From Syntrophobacterales bacterium Delta_01 (GTDB taxonomy: Bacteria; Desulfobacterota; Syntrophobacteria; Syntrophobacterales; Syntrophobacteraceae), in NCBI GenBank assembly GCA_001603845.1, contig LUZZ01000029.1, forward strand, positions 1 to 33,853: DNA of 33,853 nucleotides, read 5' to 3'. The translations under genes and the position numbers were made by a program. Below the pieces are notes generated by a model. That model was not told where the DNA came from, did not search any database, and saw nothing but the letters and a program-made list of their open reading frames with translations. Positions within the stretch are counted from its first letter, which is position 1, and every line of letters begins with the position of its first letter. Below are positions 6,716-30,655 of the stretch, in pieces.

Positions 6716-7738
6716 ATGAACACCGAACTGACCATATTGATCGTTGAGGCCATGTCGGTCTACTTTTGCGTGCTGTGGGCCCACTCCCTGCGCAAACACG
6801 CCGGCCTCGCACCCTTCTACGCCCTGCTGGGGGGCATCACGGCGGTCATGTCCTGGGTGACCGATGCCGGAGTCAAGGTGGACGTGGCGGGCATTACGTT
6901 CATGGTCGGTTCGACGGTTTTTTACACATCGCTGCTGCTGGGGATCTTCGTGGTGTACGTGTTCGACGGGCCTCGCGCCACCCGCATCGCCATCTCCACC
7001 GTGGCAGGGGTGTCCATCATGGTGCCGATCATCGCCGTGGTCCTGCACATTCAAATGAGAATTGCCGGCCACCCCACCCTGGGCTACGTACCTCTGCCCG
7101 GTCTTCGAATCAATGTCGCATCGGTCCTGGCCACCGTGGCGGACTTGGTGTTCCTGGCCATCGCCTGGGAATCTTTCGGCAAGCCGGGCCTCAAAATACG
7201 GCTGTGGATGCGGTCTTTTCTCACCCTGCTGGGAGTGATGTGGCTGGACGTGCTGCTGTTCGCCACCGGGGCCTTCCTTGGCAAAGCCGATTACTTCAGC
7301 ATCATGAAGGGCACGCTGCTCAGCCGGCTCATCATTTCCATGTTCGCCAGCCCGTTTCTCTACCTCTACCTGAACTGGCAAAACCGCAAAACGGGCATGA
7401 CCTTCGAAAACCGGCCGGTTTTGACCATCCTCAAGGAACTGTCCGAAATCCAGGTGGAACTCAGCCTCGCCCAGCAGGAAATCGAACGCCGCAAGCAGGT
7501 GGAAAAGGAAAAGGAGGGGCTCATTCGGGAGTTGCAGCAGGCGCTTTCCGAAGTCAAGACCCTGCGGGGCTTTCTGCCGATCTGCGCCAACTGCAAGAAG
7601 ATTCGCGACGACGAAGGGTACTGGCACCAGATCGAGGCATACATCCAGGAGCACTCCGAAGCCGTGTTCAGCCACGGCATCTGCCCGGCCTGCGCCGAAA
7701 AGCTCTACCCCGAACTCAAGGGAAAAATCAAGAAGTAG
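6716..7738 (+). CDS. Multi-TM sensor protein with coiled coil and C-terminal Cys motif domain (possibly VUPS/vitamin-uptake-like sensor)
   Basis: Several hydrophobic helices, then a coiled coil (QQEIERRKQVEKEKEGLIRELQQALSEVKTL), then LRGFLPICANCKKIRDDEGYWHQIEAYIQEHSEAVFSHGICPACAEKLYPEL. Confidence 0.6.
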   Translation: MNTELTILIVEAMSVYFCVLWAHSLRKHAGLAPFYALLGGITAVMSWVTDAGVKVDVAGITFMVGSTVFYTSLLLGIFVVYVFDGPRATRIAISTVAGVSIMVPIIAVVLHIQMRIAGHPTLGYVPLPGLRINVASVLATVADLVFLAIAWESFGKPGLKIRLWMRSFLTLLGVMWLDVLLFATGAFLGKADYFSIMKGTLLSRLIISMFASPFLYLYLNWQNRKTGMTFENRPVLTILKELSEIQVELSLAQQEIERRKQVEKEKEGLIRELQQALSEVKTLRGFLPICANCKKIRDDEGYWHQIEAYIQEHSEAVFSHGICPACAEKLYPELKGKIKK

Positions 7739-20885: not shown

Positions 20886-21908
20886 ATGAACCTTGTTATC
20901 ACCTATGAGTGCAACCGGTCCTGCCCCTATTGCTTTGCCAGGGGCAAATCGCAGCCGGATGCGAACAGCGGGAGCAAAAGCCCCGGCCCTACTCATATAA
21001 GTTCCGAAGATTTTGATAAGTACCTTGAGTTCCTCAGGAAAGATCGCAGAAGCGATCTAAAGCTCCTGGGCGGTGAGCCCACGCTACATCCTGCCTTCAT
21101 CGAGATGATAAGCCGCTCTCTCGATTCCGGTTTCTCGATCACTTTATTTACAAACGGTTTGTGGCCGCGTTCGGTCCAGGACTTCTTCGAAAAAGACCCC
21201 AGGACGGAGAGGGTCCATTTTATTTTTAACGTCAATGAACCGGCGATGCAGACTGCGCGCGAAAGCTCATGGCAGGCCGAGAGCCTGCGCATTGCAGGCG
21301 CTCGCGGGTGCCTGGGATTCAATATCTACCGGGAAGAGTTCAGTCTCGGGTTCATCCCTGAATTGATCGACACGTTTTCCCTGCAGAAGCATGTTCGTTT
21401 GGGCCTGGCCAGTCCCATATTCGGCCATGACAACAGTCATGTTGCTTCCAGCAGGCTGCGGAGGGTCGGGAAATCGCTCGTCGCCGAGCTGCAGGGGCTG
21501 GAGCGGCGGGACATTCTTTGTTCATTCGATTGCGGCATCCCGCTTTGCATGTTCGACGAGGAGGATATCGGCAGGGTGTTTCTGTCCACGACTCCGTGGG
21601 CATCGCTTTGCCGCAGCGGCATAGACGTCGGACCAGACCTTTCCGTTTGGCCCTGCTTTCCTCTGAGCGGCATATTGAATGTCCCTCTTCTTGATTTCGA
21701 AAGCCGGGATGCGCTCGATGTCTACTTTTCGGAAAAGCTGGCGCCATTTAGAAAGTACGGATGCCTGGAAGAATGCGCGACATGCAAGTACCTGCTTCGA
21801 AAGCAGTGCTGTGGGGGATGCCTGGCACGCACATTGCTGTCATTGCAGGATGGAGGGGATCCCGGTATATTGCAAGCGCTCAAGCGCCTCGAAGGGTGTC
21901 AAAGTTAA
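20886..21908 (+). CDS. Radical SAM protein with SPASM/twitch-like Cys-rich C-terminus, putative RiPP maturase
   Basis: CNRSCPYC (CxxxCxxC), LLGGEPTLHP, C-terminal SLCRSGIDVGPDLSVWPCFPLSG...CLEECATCKYLLRKQCCGGC. Confidence 0.85.
   Translation: MNLVITYECNRSCPYCFARGKSQPDANSGSKSPGPTHISSEDFDKYLEFLRKDRRSDLKLLGGEPTLHPAFIEMISRSLDSGFSITLFTNGLWPRSVQDFFEKDPRTERVHFIFNVNEPAMQTARESSWQAESLRIAGARGCLGFNIYREEFSLGFIPELIDTFSLQKHVRLGLASPIFGHDNSHVASSRLRRVGKSLVAELQGLERRDILCSFDCGIPLCMFDEEDIGRVFLSTTPWASLCRSGIDVGPDLSVWPCFPLSGILNVPLLDFESRDALDVYFSEKLAPFRKYGCLEECATCKYLLRKQCCGGCLARTLLSLQDGGDPGILQALKRLEGCQS
21823..21838 (+). promoter_or_regulatory. Candidate sigma54 (-24/-12) promoter
   Basis: TGGCACG-CACA-TTGCT matches TGGCACG-N4-TTGCW at every specified position; inside the 3' end of the upstream radical SAM gene, reading toward the precursor. 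Confidence 0.55.
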
Positions 21909-22071: not shown

Positions 22072-22170
22072 ATGCGTCAATTTTCCGCATGGTATGTTGA
22101 GCAGGGCACAGGTGGATTGTCAAGAGGGAAACTCAGATTGTGTCACATTTCAAAACTCGTAAGGGGATGA
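22072..22170 (+). CDS. Candidate 32-aa small ORF
   Basis: ATG preceded by gggggggaggtcatc (strong SD): MRQFSAWYVEQGTGGLSRGKLRLCHISKLVRG; ends 4 nt before the precursor ATG. Below the ORF-track size cutoff. Confidence 0.35.
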   Translation: MRQFSAWYVEQGTGGLSRGKLRLCHISKLVRG

Positions 22171-22174
22171 AACC

Positions 22175-22378
22175 ATGCTTTTGATCAATAAGAGCGGCCG
22201 CATTTACGATGTTCCGGAACACATTGCCGACAAGTACGTTGCTACGGGTTGCAGCGCCTCACGTGAAGCCGTCGGCGACATGCTGAGCACGCTGCGCAGC
22301 CAACCCACGGGTTCTTGCGAATCGGTCCATACCCAGAGTTGCTGTAATCTTTACGCAAACTATTGTCCCAATAGGTAA
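22175..22378 (+). CDS. Putative RiPP precursor peptide (67 aa, Cys-rich C-terminus)
   Basis: MLLINKSGRIYDVPEHIADKYVATGCSASREAVGDMLSTLRSQPTGSCESVHTQSCCNLYANYCPNR; RBS aagggga; flanked by two radical SAM genes. Confidence 0.8.
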   Translation: MLLINKSGRIYDVPEHIADKYVATGCSASREAVGDMLSTLRSQPTGSCESVHTQSCCNLYANYCPNR

Positions 22379-22401
22379 ACCCGCCTGTTAGAAAGTGACT
22401 T

Positions 22402-22433
22402 CCTGCCGTGGTACGAGAATCTACCACGGCAGG
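22402..22433 (+). promoter_or_regulatory. Strong intercistronic hairpin between precursor and maturase genes
   Basis: cctgccgtggta-cgagaatc-taccacggcagg: perfect 12-bp stem, 8-nt loop, partial extension of the arms. Confidence 0.75.
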
Positions 22434-22483
22434 TTACTTCAATCTTTCATCCCTTCAACAAACGAAGACAAGGATATACGCTC

Positions 22484-23674
22484 GTGGCACCTGACTGTGG
22501 CATGTTCAAAGACTTGGGCAGTGTGACATTACAGTTGCTCACCGCCTGCAATCTCTCCTGCGCTTATTGCTTCCAGGACGCCTGCAATGTTTCCGCTTTG
22601 CCTCGGGATGACGGCCGAAAGACGATGGACCCCGACGAAGCGGCCCGCACGCTCATCAAGCTTTTCGAGAGCGGCAAGGCGGAGCTGTCGATGGTATTTT
22701 CCGGAGGCGAACCGCTGCTTGCGCCCGTTGAATGGTACGAGACGTTTTTCCGCACGATGGATAGATACCTTCAGCAGTCAGGGAAAAGTCTAGAGTACTC
22801 CATTCAGACCAACATTTCGGTGCTGAAGCCCGCGATCATAGACCTGTTCAAACGGCACCATGTTCATTTCTCCGTCCATTACGACGGGCTGCTGGACAGT
22901 CCCAAGCTGTTGTCGAAGCAAAGACGGGATAATATCGTCACCCTTTTCGAGAACGGGTTCCCCATGACGGCCCTTGTGGTGGGCACTGTCGAGTCCCTGC
23001 AGATCCTCCCGTCCACGATTGAATTTTTCCACGAACACGGCATCCGTTTTTACCGGATCAATTACGTTTCGAGCCAGGGCCGAGGCCATCAGGCATCATT
23101 AATCCCGGCAGAACTCAGGGCCGAGGCCGAATTCGAAGCCGCCTTCCTCGCCTCTCAGTATGATTTCGCGACACGGGATAACGCCGTAATGAACAAGTTC
23201 ATGTTTTATTACGAAAATGTCATACGCGGCATGGACCCCGGCGGGAGACCTCGGCCGCAAAAATGCAGAGCCGGCATTGTGTCGGCGTACATCGCCGCGG
23301 ATGGGTTTGTGTACCCGTGCAGCTTTTTTACGCAGATTACCGGTCCCATGGCAACGGCCGGGGACCTGCCTTCCTCCATGGAGAGCGCCGCCGAAGCGGT
23401 GAGGCGATGTGAGGCGCCGAATTCGTATTACGATCACAAATGTCCACAGTGCAGCGCCTTACCCATTTGCGGCGAGTACTGCGCGCTTTCGCCCGTAACC
23501 GACACCAATTGTATGGAATCCTTCTGCGGCGCCCAGATTGCCCTGCGCAACCTGATGGACAGCAACCGCGAAATTACGGAGCTAATCGCCAAAAGGTACA
23601 TCGAGCACAATCATGCACACCCTCAGGATGTCCCGAGAACCTGCGGTGGGCTGACGAAAAAAAGCGATCAATAG
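22484..23674 (+). CDS. Radical SAM/SPASM peptide maturase (GTG start)
   Basis: CNLSCAYC, FSGGEPLL, C-terminal SPASM CRAGIVSAYIAADGFVYPCSFF...CPQCSALPICGEYCALSPVTDTNCMESFC. Confidence 0.9.
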   Translation: MAPDCGMFKDLGSVTLQLLTACNLSCAYCFQDACNVSALPRDDGRKTMDPDEAARTLIKLFESGKAELSMVFSGGEPLLAPVEWYETFFRTMDRYLQQSGKSLEYSIQTNISVLKPAIIDLFKRHHVHFSVHYDGLLDSPKLLSKQRRDNIVTLFENGFPMTALVVGTVESLQILPSTIEFFHEHGIRFYRINYVSSQGRGHQASLIPAELRAEAEFEAAFLASQYDFATRDNAVMNKFMFYYENVIRGMDPGGRPRPQKCRAGIVSAYIAADGFVYPCSFFTQITGPMATAGDLPSSMESAAEAVRRCEAPNSYYDHKCPQCSALPICGEYCALSPVTDTNCMESFCGAQIALRNLMDSNREITELIAKRYIEHNHAHPQDVPRTCGGLTKKSDQ

Positions 23675-23713: not shown

Positions 23714-25078
23714 ATGGCATCCAAGAAGACGAGCATGCCCGCCGATAGATTGTTCAACCGGAATTTCACCCTGATCATCGTCGGACAATCCCTGCCGGCT
23801 CTTGCCGATGCACTTTACTCCGTCGTCCTGACGCTGTACCTGAAACGGGTGACCGACTCGGCCTCGGTCCTCGGTATCATGGAGATGCTGTCGTTCCTGC
23901 CGCCGGTCCTGCTGGGGCCGCTCACGGGCGCGCTCGTCGATCGCATAAGCAGGAAGACGGTGATAGTGTGGAGCGATATTCTACGGGGACTTCTCCTGAT
24001 ACTGCTATGCGTTTTCAGCCTCGACTGGTTTTTCAACTTTAAGGTGCTCAATATCGGGATAATGGAGATTCACCTTTCGTTTCCATTTTCCGTCTACGCC
24101 CTGCTCACTGCGACAGTCTTACTGGCCGCCATCGATTCCGCCTTCAGTTCCGCTTTGAACGTGATCACCCCGGAGATATTGTCAAAACGTGAAATCCAGA
24201 GGGGTAATTCACTGCTCCAGGGGGTCAGCGGCACCCTCGGAATGCTGGGCAACGGTCTCGGGGGGATTCTTTTCGCCATGTTCGGGGCGCCTTTGGTGTT
24301 TCTCATCAGGGGAATCTCGCACCTGTTCGCCGCCACCGCCGGTCTGTTTTTGTCCGTCCCCGATAAGTCCTCCGCACTCAAGCCTTCGTTTTCATACAGA
24401 ACCCTGATCGCGGAAGTGAAGGAAGGCTTTCTGTTCATCTGGGCAAACAAGGGCCTGAGGAACTTGATGGTGGTCTATATGCTGTCCAATCTCCTCTTCC
24501 CGATGGTGATGCTGGGAGCGCCCTTCCTGATCACGGACGTCATGAAGCTCAGTGAAGCGTTTTACGGGTATCTGATGAGCGTGATAACGTTGAGTTCCAT
24601 TGTCGGATATCTTATTTTCGGTTCCCTGAGGCTAACGGAAAAACAGAATTACATGGTGATATGCTGGACGTTCTTTGTCGAAGCGATGGTGTTTTTGGCT
24701 CTTTCCTTTACAGTCAATACATATCTCGTGTTTCTCCTGTTTGCAGTCCTTTCTTCATGCATGGCTGTATCACGATTGATAAATACGTCTCTAAAGCAAA
24801 TCGTTATCCCTGAAGAAATCAGGGGAAGGGTCTTCGGTACCGAGAGTTCCATCAACGGTATCCTCGTTCCGGTATCCTTTGCGATTGGCGGTTTTATCAT
24901 AGACCTGCTGAAAAAAAATATCGGGCTTCTTTTCTCCATCATTTTCGTTCTCTATACGCTTTTGGCCATCGCTTTTGTCTTGAGCACGGCCATCAGGCAA
25001 TTCTACCTGACATCGACGCCGGGCACAGGGCGGCCGCAGGTGCGGTCCACATCGATGACGGAGACAATCGAACCGTAG
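23714..25078 (+). CDS. MFS transporter, putative peptide product exporter
   Basis: 454 aa, about 12 hydrophobic helices, LTGALVDRISRKTVIVWSD (MFS loop motif), MFS_3/efflux-like. Confidence 0.88.
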   Translation: MASKKTSMPADRLFNRNFTLIIVGQSLPALADALYSVVLTLYLKRVTDSASVLGIMEMLSFLPPVLLGPLTGALVDRISRKTVIVWSDILRGLLLILLCVFSLDWFFNFKVLNIGIMEIHLSFPFSVYALLTATVLLAAIDSAFSSALNVITPEILSKREIQRGNSLLQGVSGTLGMLGNGLGGILFAMFGAPLVFLIRGISHLFAATAGLFLSVPDKSSALKPSFSYRTLIAEVKEGFLFIWANKGLRNLMVVYMLSNLLFPMVMLGAPFLITDVMKLSEAFYGYLMSVITLSSIVGYLIFGSLRLTEKQNYMVICWTFFVEAMVFLALSFTVNTYLVFLLFAVLSSCMAVSRLINTSLKQIVIPEEIRGRVFGTESSINGILVPVSFAIGGFIIDLLKKNIGLLFSIIFVLYTLLAIAFVLSTAIRQFYLTSTPGTGRPQVRSTSMTETIEP

Positions 25079-26862
25079 TTGTCGTTAAAATAAACCAGGT
25101 GCATTTCCCTGAGAAGGCCCAGTGCGGCACAAACCGATCTCTCGTCTATTTCCGCGTCATATTTCCTGAGCACCTCCAGAAGACCGCGAAGGTCCATGAT
25201 GCTCGAATTCGTCTCGTAGAGGATACGGCAGGCCAGGTCTTTTATCTCAAGATCGACCACGAGTTCGCCGTCGAAGAACTCGCGGTAGAAAATCATATCG
25301 TCCTCCCGGACAACACTGTAACTGTAGGTATGATCATAGTAAAAGTCGTTTACCTTTGAGAAAAGGTCCCAGAGAAAATTCTGCGGCGCGGAAAAGTCGA
25401 ACAGAGAAAAACGGTCAATTCCCTCCACCATCTTTGTGGGCAATAAATGGAAGATCGTATTCTCTCCCCACTTGATTAGATCACCCTTTGCGGTCATATC
25501 GTAGAAGCCCGAATGCTTGGCGAGCCGGAGTGGAATCAGGTTGTGACAAAAGAGGGCCTTGTCGAAATAAAATCTCAGGAAATGCAGGTTGTCGATGCTT
25601 TCCAGAATATCGTAGTCCGTTTCCCCCGTTACCCCGCATATGATGTTTGCCGAAGGGAGCATGATTCCGTATTTGTGCGCAAATTTGACGAGAAATATGT
25701 TGTCAGAAAAATTGGTTCGCTTTCTCATCTTCGCCAGCAGACGGTCCGATAGGGCTTCGTATCCACAATGGATCCTGCCCAGCCCGGCGCGGGGGAACTT
25801 CTCCAGAAGGCTTGTCGTGAGTTTTTTATGGACAACCTCGGCAATCACTTCAATGTTGTTGTCCCGTCTCATGGCGATGAGGTCGTCGAGGATGCTTTCG
25901 AGCCTTGTCGGGTCGTTGGCGACTATGTCGTTATCCATGAAGGCGAAGTAGCGTGCGTGGTATCGATCCAGGAGGTGATTGATTTCCGATTTCAAGACTG
26001 CGGGCTCTTTTTTCCTGTTCTCATACCCCTCTCCGTACACGCAGAACCGGCAAGCGTTCCACATGCACCCCCGGCTCGATTCCAGGGGAAAGATCACGGG
26101 AGAGTCCTTCCGGTTCGACGCCGCGAGGTAGTCGAAGTAGTCATCATAATCGGGAAATATCCCGCTGTTCATATCGAAAAACCTGCCGGTCTCCGTATCG
26201 GACGGCAGCAGCGAGCCGTCTTTGCGAAAAACGAGCCGGGGAACGGATGCGAAGTCATCCATGTGGCCGTCGATACACCGGCATAACTCCAGCAACGGAT
26301 ATTCGCCCTCTCCCCAGATCGCGAAATCAAACAGGTCGCATGCGCTCAGGATGGATTCGGCCTTCTCTCGATTGCGCAGGCCGCCGATAAGGATTTTTGC
26401 TCCGGGAAAATACTCTTTCATGTATTTGGCGAGAACGATGCCCGGGATCCACTGTTCATATTTGCAGGGAATTCCAAAAAGCAGCGGACCGTTGCGCGAA
26501 TGCTTCGAGAACTCCTTCGAGACGAGGGTATCCATGGTGTCTCTGGTTTTTGCCAGATAGTCGCTATTGTCGTTCAGGATGTCCCGGATGGGCCTCTGTG
26601 CCTTGAGCACGGCGTTGGCCTTGCTTTTGGCGATATCGTCGTGGTACTCCCCGGCGATCAGGTAGAGGTAGGGCAGCAGGTCGAAATGGATCGCATCGGT
26701 AGTTTTCCCGGATATGGGCAGCAGCTTATCGAGGAGCATGTTCCAGTATATTACCGTTGTTTGAATATTGTGGTGCAGGAGGAAGCCCTTGAGGGTGGAA
26801 AGCGCGGCGGAGGGCGTATCGATCCGCGCGGGGGGCAGAGCATTGAGTATCACTTCGATCAC
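25003..26862 (-). CDS. B12-binding-type radical SAM protein, RiPP maturation C-methyltransferase-like
   Basis: N-terminal B12-binding-like region (AKILIGGLRNREKAES...FAIWGEGEYPLLEL), radical SAM SSRGCMWNACRFCVYG, C-terminal winged-helix-like domain. Confidence 0.8.
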   Translation of the reverse strand: MIEVILNALPPARIDTPSAALSTLKGFLLHHNIQTTVIYWNMLLDKLLPISGKTTDAIHFDLLPYLYLIAGEYHDDIAKSKANAVLKAQRPIRDILNDNSDYLAKTRDTMDTLVSKEFSKHSRNGPLLFGIPCKYEQWIPGIVLAKYMKEYFPGAKILIGGLRNREKAESILSACDLFDFAIWGEGEYPLLELCRCIDGHMDDFASVPRLVFRKDGSLLPSDTETGRFFDMNSGIFPDYDDYFDYLAASNRKDSPVIFPLESSRGCMWNACRFCVYGEGYENRKKEPAVLKSEINHLLDRYHARYFAFMDNDIVANDPTRLESILDDLIAMRRDNNIEVIAEVVHKKLTTSLLEKFPRAGLGRIHCGYEALSDRLLAKMRKRTNFSDNIFLVKFAHKYGIMLPSANIICGVTGETDYDILESIDNLHFLRFYFDKALFCHNLIPLRLAKHSGFYDMTAKGDLIKWGENTIFHLLPTKMVEGIDRFSLFDFSAPQNFLWDLFSKVNDFYYDHTYSYSVVREDDMIFYREFFDGELVVDLEIKDLACRILYETNSSIMDLRGLLEVLRKYDAEIDERSVCAALGLLREMHLVYFNDNYGSIVSVIDVDRTCGRPVPGVDVR

Positions 26863-28826: not shown

Positions 28827-30371
28827 TCACTCCGGCCCCCGCCGGCCTCTTCTGAGCCCTTCGCAGAAAAACGGCGCGTGGTTGGACGTAAAGTGCGGCG
28901 GGTCCTTGGCCACGATGGGGGCGATGGCGGGATGCCGCTTGAACTCCCTGTCCAAAAAATGCCTCACCCGTGAACGGTCCCAACCCTTCGGATGTGAAAA
29001 ATCGGTATAGAGCGAAAGATCCCCGGCGTAGTGGGGAGAGGTCCCGAACCTTGCCGCGTCCGGGCTGTTTACCGGCATGTTGAAGACGGCGAGGTTCAGA
29101 AAATCGATCATCGAGCTGTGTCGGACGGTATACTCCAGGGTGTGCCGGGCCTCATCGGCCGACTCCGAAGGGGTCCCGAAAAGCAGGTAGACGTAAGTGC
29201 CGATTCCGGCCCTTTTGAGAGCGGCGAGCGCTTTTGAGGCAATCTCCAGGTCGATGCCCTTCCCTTCCGAATCGATCACCCCCTGGTCCCCCGATTCCAG
29301 CCCGAGTTTCAGCATGACGCAGCCCGATTTCCGGAGCGCGCGGCAAAAATCCTCGTCGGCAAGGCTTCGCGTTATCCGCACGAACCCGTACCAGGGGGCG
29401 CCCGGAGGGTCTTTGGCAATCCGGCGAAGCAGGGCCGGGCTGACGGCGCTGTCCAGAAAATGGAGAAGCGCCGGGCGGAAGCGCCCCGCCAGTTTTCCGG
29501 CATCGCCGCGCGCCGCCGCCGGGTGGGCGGGTTCGTACCGGGTGCCCTCGGCCGCTTCCGGGCAGAAGGCGCACCGGTTCCAGTAGCACCCGGAAGAGGA
29601 GCTGTAGGGGACGATCCGGCCGGGAGCCAGGTAATCGTCCAGGGAAAAGAGCGAGTAGTCGGGACAGGGCACCGGGCGCCCTTCCGGTTGTTTCCCGGCA
29701 ATCTCCACCAGTGCCCGCTCGCCGGGGCCGTCGATCAGGTGATCGACAAGGCCCGCAAAGGGATTTTTCCACCGCGGGTTTCGGACCCAGGAGGTGACGA
29801 GGCCGCCGCCGAGCGCGATCCTGACCGCCGGGAAGTGGGCTTTCGCCCACCCGATCATGGCAAAGACGCTGAGTGCCTGGCTCAAGAAATTAAGTGAAAA
29901 ACCTACGACTTCCGGGCTGTCGCGCTCCATCGCCTCCGCCAGCCGCTTCGAGAAATAGCCGTGGAAGGGATTTTTCGCATACTCTTCGGCCGAGCGCAGA
30001 AGGTCCCGGCTCCTGACCGGCGAAAGTTCCGAATGCAAGTAATTGGAAAGGCTGAGGCGCACGGGGCCGTTTCCGGCGGTTTTTTCCAGCAGCCGGTTGA
30101 GGTCGGAAACGGTTCGTTTGTAGCGCTGGAGTTCCGCATAGCCGCCCGGGCTGCGGATGGAGGCCAGGTTTTTTTCGCGCCCGCGCACCGCCCGGAGGGT
30201 CCACCGGTCGGAGCCGTCCACGGGTTGATCGAGCAGGTACAGAACGGCCTCGATATTGGCGTCGATGACCGAGCACTTCACACCGGCCGCCGTCAGCGCC
30301 CCGTAGAGCCTGGCGATGCCGGGCGGCGGTTCGGAGGGTTTTACCAGAGGGGGATTGATTAGAAGGATCAT
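28827..30371 (-). CDS. B12-binding domain radical SAM protein
   Basis: LLINPPLVKPSEPPPGIARLYGALTAAG...VRIALGGGLVTSW; SSSSGCYWNRCAFCPE; LLFGTPSESADEARHTLEY. Confidence 0.9.
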   Translation of the reverse strand: MILLINPPLVKPSEPPPGIARLYGALTAAGVKCSVIDANIEAVLYLLDQPVDGSDRWTLRAVRGREKNLASIRSPGGYAELQRYKRTVSDLNRLLEKTAGNGPVRLSLSNYLHSELSPVRSRDLLRSAEEYAKNPFHGYFSKRLAEAMERDSPEVVGFSLNFLSQALSVFAMIGWAKAHFPAVRIALGGGLVTSWVRNPRWKNPFAGLVDHLIDGPGERALVEIAGKQPEGRPVPCPDYSLFSLDDYLAPGRIVPYSSSSGCYWNRCAFCPEAAEGTRYEPAHPAAARGDAGKLAGRFRPALLHFLDSAVSPALLRRIAKDPPGAPWYGFVRITRSLADEDFCRALRKSGCVMLKLGLESGDQGVIDSEGKGIDLEIASKALAALKRAGIGTYVYLLFGTPSESADEARHTLEYTVRHSSMIDFLNLAVFNMPVNSPDAARFGTSPHYAGDLSLYTDFSHPKGWDRSRVRHFLDREFKRHPAIAPIVAKDPPHFTSNHAPFFCEGLRRGRRGPE

Positions 30372-30394: not shown

Positions 30395-30655
30395 CTAACA
30401 TACTTCATCCAAAATGCGGCTTATTTCGGCCGAAGACAGTTTAACCTCCTTCACCGATTTAGCATCCCTGAGGCGTCTTACGGCGTCGAGGATTCTTTCG
30501 GCGGCATCCTTTTGAAGGCGGCACCCTGCAACTTTCGTGGTTCCCCTTCCTGCCGGCATTGCGGGCTGCCCGCTGGCCGCATCCCCTAAAACCTTTCGGC
30601 CGGGGCTATTCTTGCCCACTGTTTTTCTCACAGCGGTCTTACTTTTCGGAGCCAT
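30395..30655 (-). CDS. Hypothetical protein (86 aa, basic N-terminus)
   Basis: Overlaps the 3' end of the upstream membrane-protein ORF. Confidence 0.5.
   Translation of the reverse strand: MAPKSKTAVRKTVGKNSPGRKVLGDAASGQPAMPAGRGTTKVAGCRLQKDAAERILDAVRRLRDAKSVKEVKLSSAEISRILDEVC

Follow-up and report, generated by a model that had tools for sequence, protein, structure and literature searches.

A short peptide with an invariant Cys- and Tyr-rich tail, encoded with two radical SAM enzymes, is a candidate precursor of an unnamed RiPP family

A 67-aa open reading frame in the window, which is the whole 33,853-nucleotide stretch of DNA analysed here, is probably the precursor gene of a radical-SAM RiPP that has no name yet, in which a SPASM enzyme would cross-link the tail of the peptide, a B12-type radical SAM enzyme would modify it further and an MFS protein would export the product. 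The relevant features are the following.

20886..21908, + strand: upstream radical SAM protein, 340 aa; lineage-specific, present in only some versions of the cluster
22161..22166, + strand: Shine-Dalgarno-like AAGGGG, 8 nt 5' of the ATG, found by sequence inspection
22175..22378, + strand: precursor peptide gene, 67 aa; 12 homologues, dN clearly below dS
22175..22297, + strand: leader, residues 1-41 (MLLxNKxGRxYDVPE...MLSTLR); conserved block in the 12-sequence alignment
22298..22339, + strand: variable hinge, residues 42-55; differs in sequence, and in length by 1-2 residues
22340..22375, + strand: core, residues 56-67 (CCNLYANYCPNR); C56, C57, Y60, N62, Y63, C64 and P65 invariant in 12 of 12
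22401..22434, + strand: conserved RNA hairpin between the precursor and maturase genes; 11 of 12 loci, with covariation
22484..23674, + strand: radical SAM/SPASM maturase, 396 aa, with the motif CNLSCAYC; follows the peptide in 12 of 12 loci
23714..25078, + strand: MFS exporter, 454 aa; 11 of 12 loci
25003..26862, - strand: B12-type radical SAM protein, 619 aa; convergent, TIGR03975 at 162 bits

The ORF (22175-22378, +) translates as MLLINKSGRIYDVPEHIADKYVATGCSASREAVGDMLSTLRSQPTGSCESVHTQSCCNLYANYCPNR. Its coordinates and sequence are those given in an earlier sequence-only reading, which also placed the Cys residues at 26, 48, 56, 57 and 64 and YAN at 60-62 correctly; the TG dipeptide, put there at 46-47, lies at 45-46. 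Since 190 ORFs of at least 40 aa overlap positions 12000-33853 of the window, length alone is little proof of a precursor gene. On comparative grounds the 67-aa ORF is a real gene, because the start and stop sites coincide across the 12 homologues, dN is clearly lower than dS in all pairs for which dS is estimable (dN/dS 0.24/1.89 for the window against L002, 0.26/1.05 for the window against L023 and 0.013/0.33 for L005 against L006), and the AAGGGG element precedes the start codon. Sites of the GGAG/AGGA type occur at the equivalent position in most homologues. Searches of NCBIfam, Pfam and PDB sequences with the peptide gave no credible match, and a gene of this kind could easily be overlooked by automatic annotation.

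The tail of the peptide follows the pattern C56 C57 [NCQ] x Y60 [APS] N62 Y63 C64 P65 [NQ] in the alignment of the 12 sequences. A conserved leader and an invariant tail flanking a variable hinge are the classic layout of a precursor, and the alignment and the locus together support the original proposal of a short precursor, with leader and C-terminal core, beside radical SAM enzymes. The C-terminal pattern on which that proposal had been staked is thus invariant in the 12 homologues. The leader/core split drawn at TG found no support, as this dipeptide is present only in the window's sequence and the variable hinge spans residues 42-55, and neither did any role for C26 or C48, both residues being private to the window's precursor. 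The tails of two precursors (L025 and L052) read CGCCCIYxNYCPN, in which Cys takes the place of Asn58 and the hinge holds another Cys. These two peptides carry extra Cys both before and after the CC pair, and the number of Cys thus varies around three that are fixed.

The order of the genes is the peptide, the radical SAM/SPASM enzyme, the MFS exporter and then the convergent B12-type radical SAM gene. The SPASM gene directly follows the peptide in every locus and the exporter is the next gene in 11 of the 12; a search for the MFS gene in G006 gave no match. In 10 loci the B12-type gene lies convergently at the end of the cluster; the other two genomes, G006 and G450, carry it on a separate contig, although these two positions could be imperfect because most of the genomes are metagenome assemblies. 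An orthologue of the B12-type enzyme is present in all 12 genomes, and its retention after separation in G006 and G450 argues for a shared pathway over mere neighbourhood. An encoded leader and core and a co-occurring modifying enzyme, two of the features by which a RiPP is recognized, are both found here. Pfam detected no protease within the cluster and no RRE-type domain in its enzymes. The 3' ends of the exporter and B12-type genes share 76 bp (25003-25078), and an overlap is also seen in several other loci.

The radical SAM gene at 20886-21908 has a decayed copy in G006 (L024), and in L052 a gene with 28% identity to it adjoins that of the peptide; no counterpart was seen in the remaining loci. 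This gene was set aside as the maturase because it is absent from most loci; its product may be an optional third modifier.

Precursor homologues were found in 12 genomes in all, with 55-74% identity, from Syntrophorhabdus, Desulfatitalea and their relatives. The search of a genome collection yielded five precursor relatives (58-69% identity), and others were added from genomes related to that of the window (G012 and G006; G252; and G446, G448 and G450); the records G440 and G441 duplicate L003 and L002. Among 61 relatives, only G000, G006 and G012 carry the peptide together with the SPASM enzyme and a close match to the B12-type enzyme over its full length (E = 0); G053 gave a weak, interrupted peptide match (E 0.02) and G047 one remote match to the B12-type enzyme (26% identical). 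All three genes occur in the same six of 46 genomes in the order of G252, and only in those, and a credible peptide and the SPASM enzyme were identified in the same two of 398 genomes in the phylum sample, the genomes behind these counts not being mutually independent. The sequence-only reading had named relatives that keep the enzymes and lose the peptide as evidence against it; no such genome was found among the 61 relatives, the 46-genome order and the phylum sample. Furthermore, the cluster is patchy in the genus of G440 (five of the 12 listed genomes), which argues that the co-occurrence does not simply reflect shared descent of whole genomes.

Several other matches were rejected. A viral contig (L047) gave a chance match within a family-A DNA polymerase, a match on a Sinorhizobium plasmid (E = 0.4) belongs to a 535-aa ORF resembling an alcohol dehydrogenase and has none of this cluster's radical SAM genes nearby, and the weak matches in the phylum sample (E 0.002 to 0.1) either cover only part of the peptide, are interrupted or are located within longer frames.

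Just 3' of the stop codon of the precursor gene, 11 of the 12 loci can form an RNA hairpin of 15 pairs, 10 of which show compensatory changes. The paired cells amount to 91.9%, compared with 74.3% in shuffled and 31-58% in slid controls, and there are 29 compensatory cells against 9.2 in the shuffles. A search with the hairpin model in the genomes searched gave matches at this locus alone, besides chance-level ones; as the model was built from these same loci, what is informative is that no additional copies appeared. Rfam contained no known RNA matching the hairpin. In L023-L025, the hairpin is followed by a run of T, as in a leaky terminator. The hairpin probably sets the level of the precursor above that of the enzymes; alternatively, it may be the site of a regulator.

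The SPASM enzyme contains the CxxxCxxC motif and Cys at 261, 279, 320, 323, 329, 333 and 348, all of which are invariant in nine aligned sequences, and this combination of CxxxCxxC and seven-Cys pattern places it in the SPASM radical SAM peptide maturase superfamily. The only NCBIfam model that it passes is the generic one for the SPASM domain, TIGR04085 (35.2 bits versus a cut-off of 27 bits). Its highest NCBIfam scores are to PapB (78 bits), the sulfatase maturase (67), QhpD (61), GrrM/OscB (59) and DynA (58), each of them far short of the respective cut-off. The PapB score is below the family cut-off of 340 bits, as are the scores to the 3-CyFE models GrrM/OscB (59 of 310), YhhB (55 of 445) and XyeB (30 of 450). 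Since the enzyme scores under the curated cut-off of every peptide-maturase family, the chemistry is not transferable by family membership. The AlphaFold model is of moderate quality (pLDDT 69.5), with anSME, SuiB, TigE, ChlB and CteB as the best PDB folds.

The nearest NCBIfam model to the B12-type enzyme is TIGR03975, a RiPP radical SAM C-methyltransferase family, which aligns over residues 4-429 with a score below the cut-off (162 of 281.85 bits). The Pfam match to a B12-binding domain is weak (E 0.06), and the fold of a poor AlphaFold model (pLDDT 53.4) matches TsrM, TokK, CysS and OxsB. The ApyD model scored 38 of 750 bits. Judged from sequences and models, the class of both the SPASM and the B12-type protein appears clear and their specific reactions are putative. 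The window also contains a second B12-type radical SAM gene (28827-30371, -), which scores 58 of 600 bits to the PhpK model and is not conserved in the other loci; the ORF after it (30395-30655) has 86 aa and matches no Pfam family.

The sequences themselves show that the gene is real, that its tail is invariant, that the three genes co-occur and that the hairpin covaries; the chemical steps, processing, export and hairpin function set out next are inferred from them. The leader (residues 1-41) would dock the precursor on the SPASM enzyme that is encoded next, and this enzyme, by means of SAM-derived radicals and auxiliary iron-sulfur clusters, would abstract a hydrogen in the CCxxYxNYCP tail, whereupon a cross-link would be closed within the tail. 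The likeliest acceptor is the beta-carbon of Asn62, which could be joined either to the ring of Tyr60, forming a three-residue cyclophane, or to one of the conserved Cys through its sulfur, forming a ranthionine. The B12 radical SAM enzyme would then introduce a second change, probably a C-methylation. The leader would be removed by a protease encoded outside the locus and the mature product exported by the MFS protein, and the hairpin after the precursor gene would probably keep the precursor in excess of the enzymes.

Links from Tyr60 to Asn62 and from Cys to Asn62 fit about equally well. The sequence-only reading had noted an aromatic-x-x motif in the core, and Y60-x-N62 is indeed invariant in 12 of 12. 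It had also proposed that invariance among homologues might tell the Cys pattern from Y-x-N; this comparison could be made, but C56, C57 and C64 are as invariant as Y60 and N62, and it therefore cannot separate a thioether from a cyclophane. Precedents exist for both links. In the triceptides, an aromatic ring is linked to the beta-carbon of the residue two positions on (i,i+2), with Tyr known among the donors and Asn among the acceptors, and links from Cys sulfur to the beta-carbon of Asn are likewise on record (PMC11002830). We slightly favor the Tyr60-Asn62 cyclophane over a Cys thioether, since Y60 and N62 never vary, in contrast to the intervening residue, which can be A, P or S.

We consider it quite possible, though short of probable, that the SPASM enzyme instead links C56, C57 or C64 by S-Cbeta (ranthionine) or S-Calpha (sactionine) bonds, with Tyr60 kept for recognition only. 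Three Cys are invariant, the Cys-Asn precedent applies, and the ranthipeptide maturase PapB is the best NCBIfam model, ahead of GrrM/OscB and YhhB, but the margin is small and all scores are far below the cut-offs. PapB links Cys to Asp or Glu and tolerates Cys-Xn-Asp with n = 0-6 (PMC9413430), whereas residues 56-67 of the core contain no Asp or Glu acceptor, and thioether chemistry would not need the invariant Y60 and Y63.

We also considered a metal site built from the three conserved Cys and the two Tyr, similar to that of copper-binding peptides, which the radical enzymes would only tune. An invariant Cys- and Tyr-rich tail with an exporter is consistent with such a function, but the co-conserved genes include no metal regulator, MNIO, TonB receptor or periplasmic binding protein, and we regard it as distinctly unlikely. 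A peptide-derived redox cofactor for intracellular use, with the Tyr-bearing segment excised as for PQQ or mycofactocin, seems more doubtful still: the SPASM family does include cofactor maturases and Y60 and Y63 are invariant, but the peptide is accompanied by no protease or dehydrogenase and, in 11 of 12 loci, by an MFS exporter. The ORF might also encode an unmodified small protein that is merely located in an enzyme operon, but this is scarcely credible: the peptide strictly co-occurs with the two enzymes, also in genomes that carry the B12 gene away from the locus, and a short tail that is invariant and preceded by a variable hinge is unlike a uniformly conserved small domain.

Several known systems come close to the proposed cross-linked RiPP. 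The triceptide systems, with XncB, OscB/GrrM, YxdB and YhhB as 3-CyFE maturases, likewise combine a SPASM enzyme with a short precursor and an aromatic-x-Asn tail, but the enzyme described here falls below the GrrM/OscB, YhhB and XyeB cut-offs, and the three invariant Cys and the B12-type partner are features absent from triceptide loci as described in the literature compared. The ranthipeptides (PapB/freyrasin, CteB/thermocellin and the Streptococcus Cys-Asn type) share a Cys-rich tail and the top-scoring model; in contrast to them, the SPASM enzyme here reaches 78 of 340 bits, and the cluster lacks C-x3-D/E repeats and has a single short tail and an extra B12-type enzyme. Unlike the TIGR03975 C-methyltransferases, the B12-type enzyme here scores below the cut-off and has the iron-sulfur motif C-x4-C-x2-C. 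The aminopyruvatide pathway (ApyA/ApyD) resembles the cluster in its Tyr-rich precursor end and B12 radical SAM enzyme, which in ApyD methylates Tyr (PMC11117315), whereas the cluster has no P450, MNIO or separate methyltransferase. ApyD was dropped as a precedent for Tyr-Tyr cross-linking, since it is the P450 that forms the cross-link (PMC11117315).

A literature search, mainly of non-subscription papers, returned no paper on this cluster. The precursor and the enzymes fall below every named peptide-maturation cut-off in NCBIfam, and a new RiPP family is the best reading of the sequences. This putative family would add to the known systems a pair of radical SAM enzymes with a substrate tail that is compact and invariant, and it comes from syntrophic and sulfate-reducer-type bacteria, a group in which few natural products have been described. 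The acceptors for two known SPASM chemistries lie within one 12-residue tail, with Asn62 common to both, and the cluster could thus reveal why such an enzyme forms a C-C bond in one case and a C-S bond in another. One bolder and rather unlikely hypothesis is that Asn62 is the hub of a multi-ring tail, in which one SPASM enzyme would form both the Tyr-Asn cyclophane and one or more Cys thioethers, followed by B12 radical SAM methylation and with the precursor dosage set by the hairpin, which would amount to a new RiPP class.

Finally, a remnant of the tail of a second precursor (DGC*NAFANYCPNR) adjoins the separate B12-type gene of G450, in L053 at 7541-7633 (-). It is most likely a pseudogene, since a TGA stands at the position of C57 and the leader is unrecognisable.
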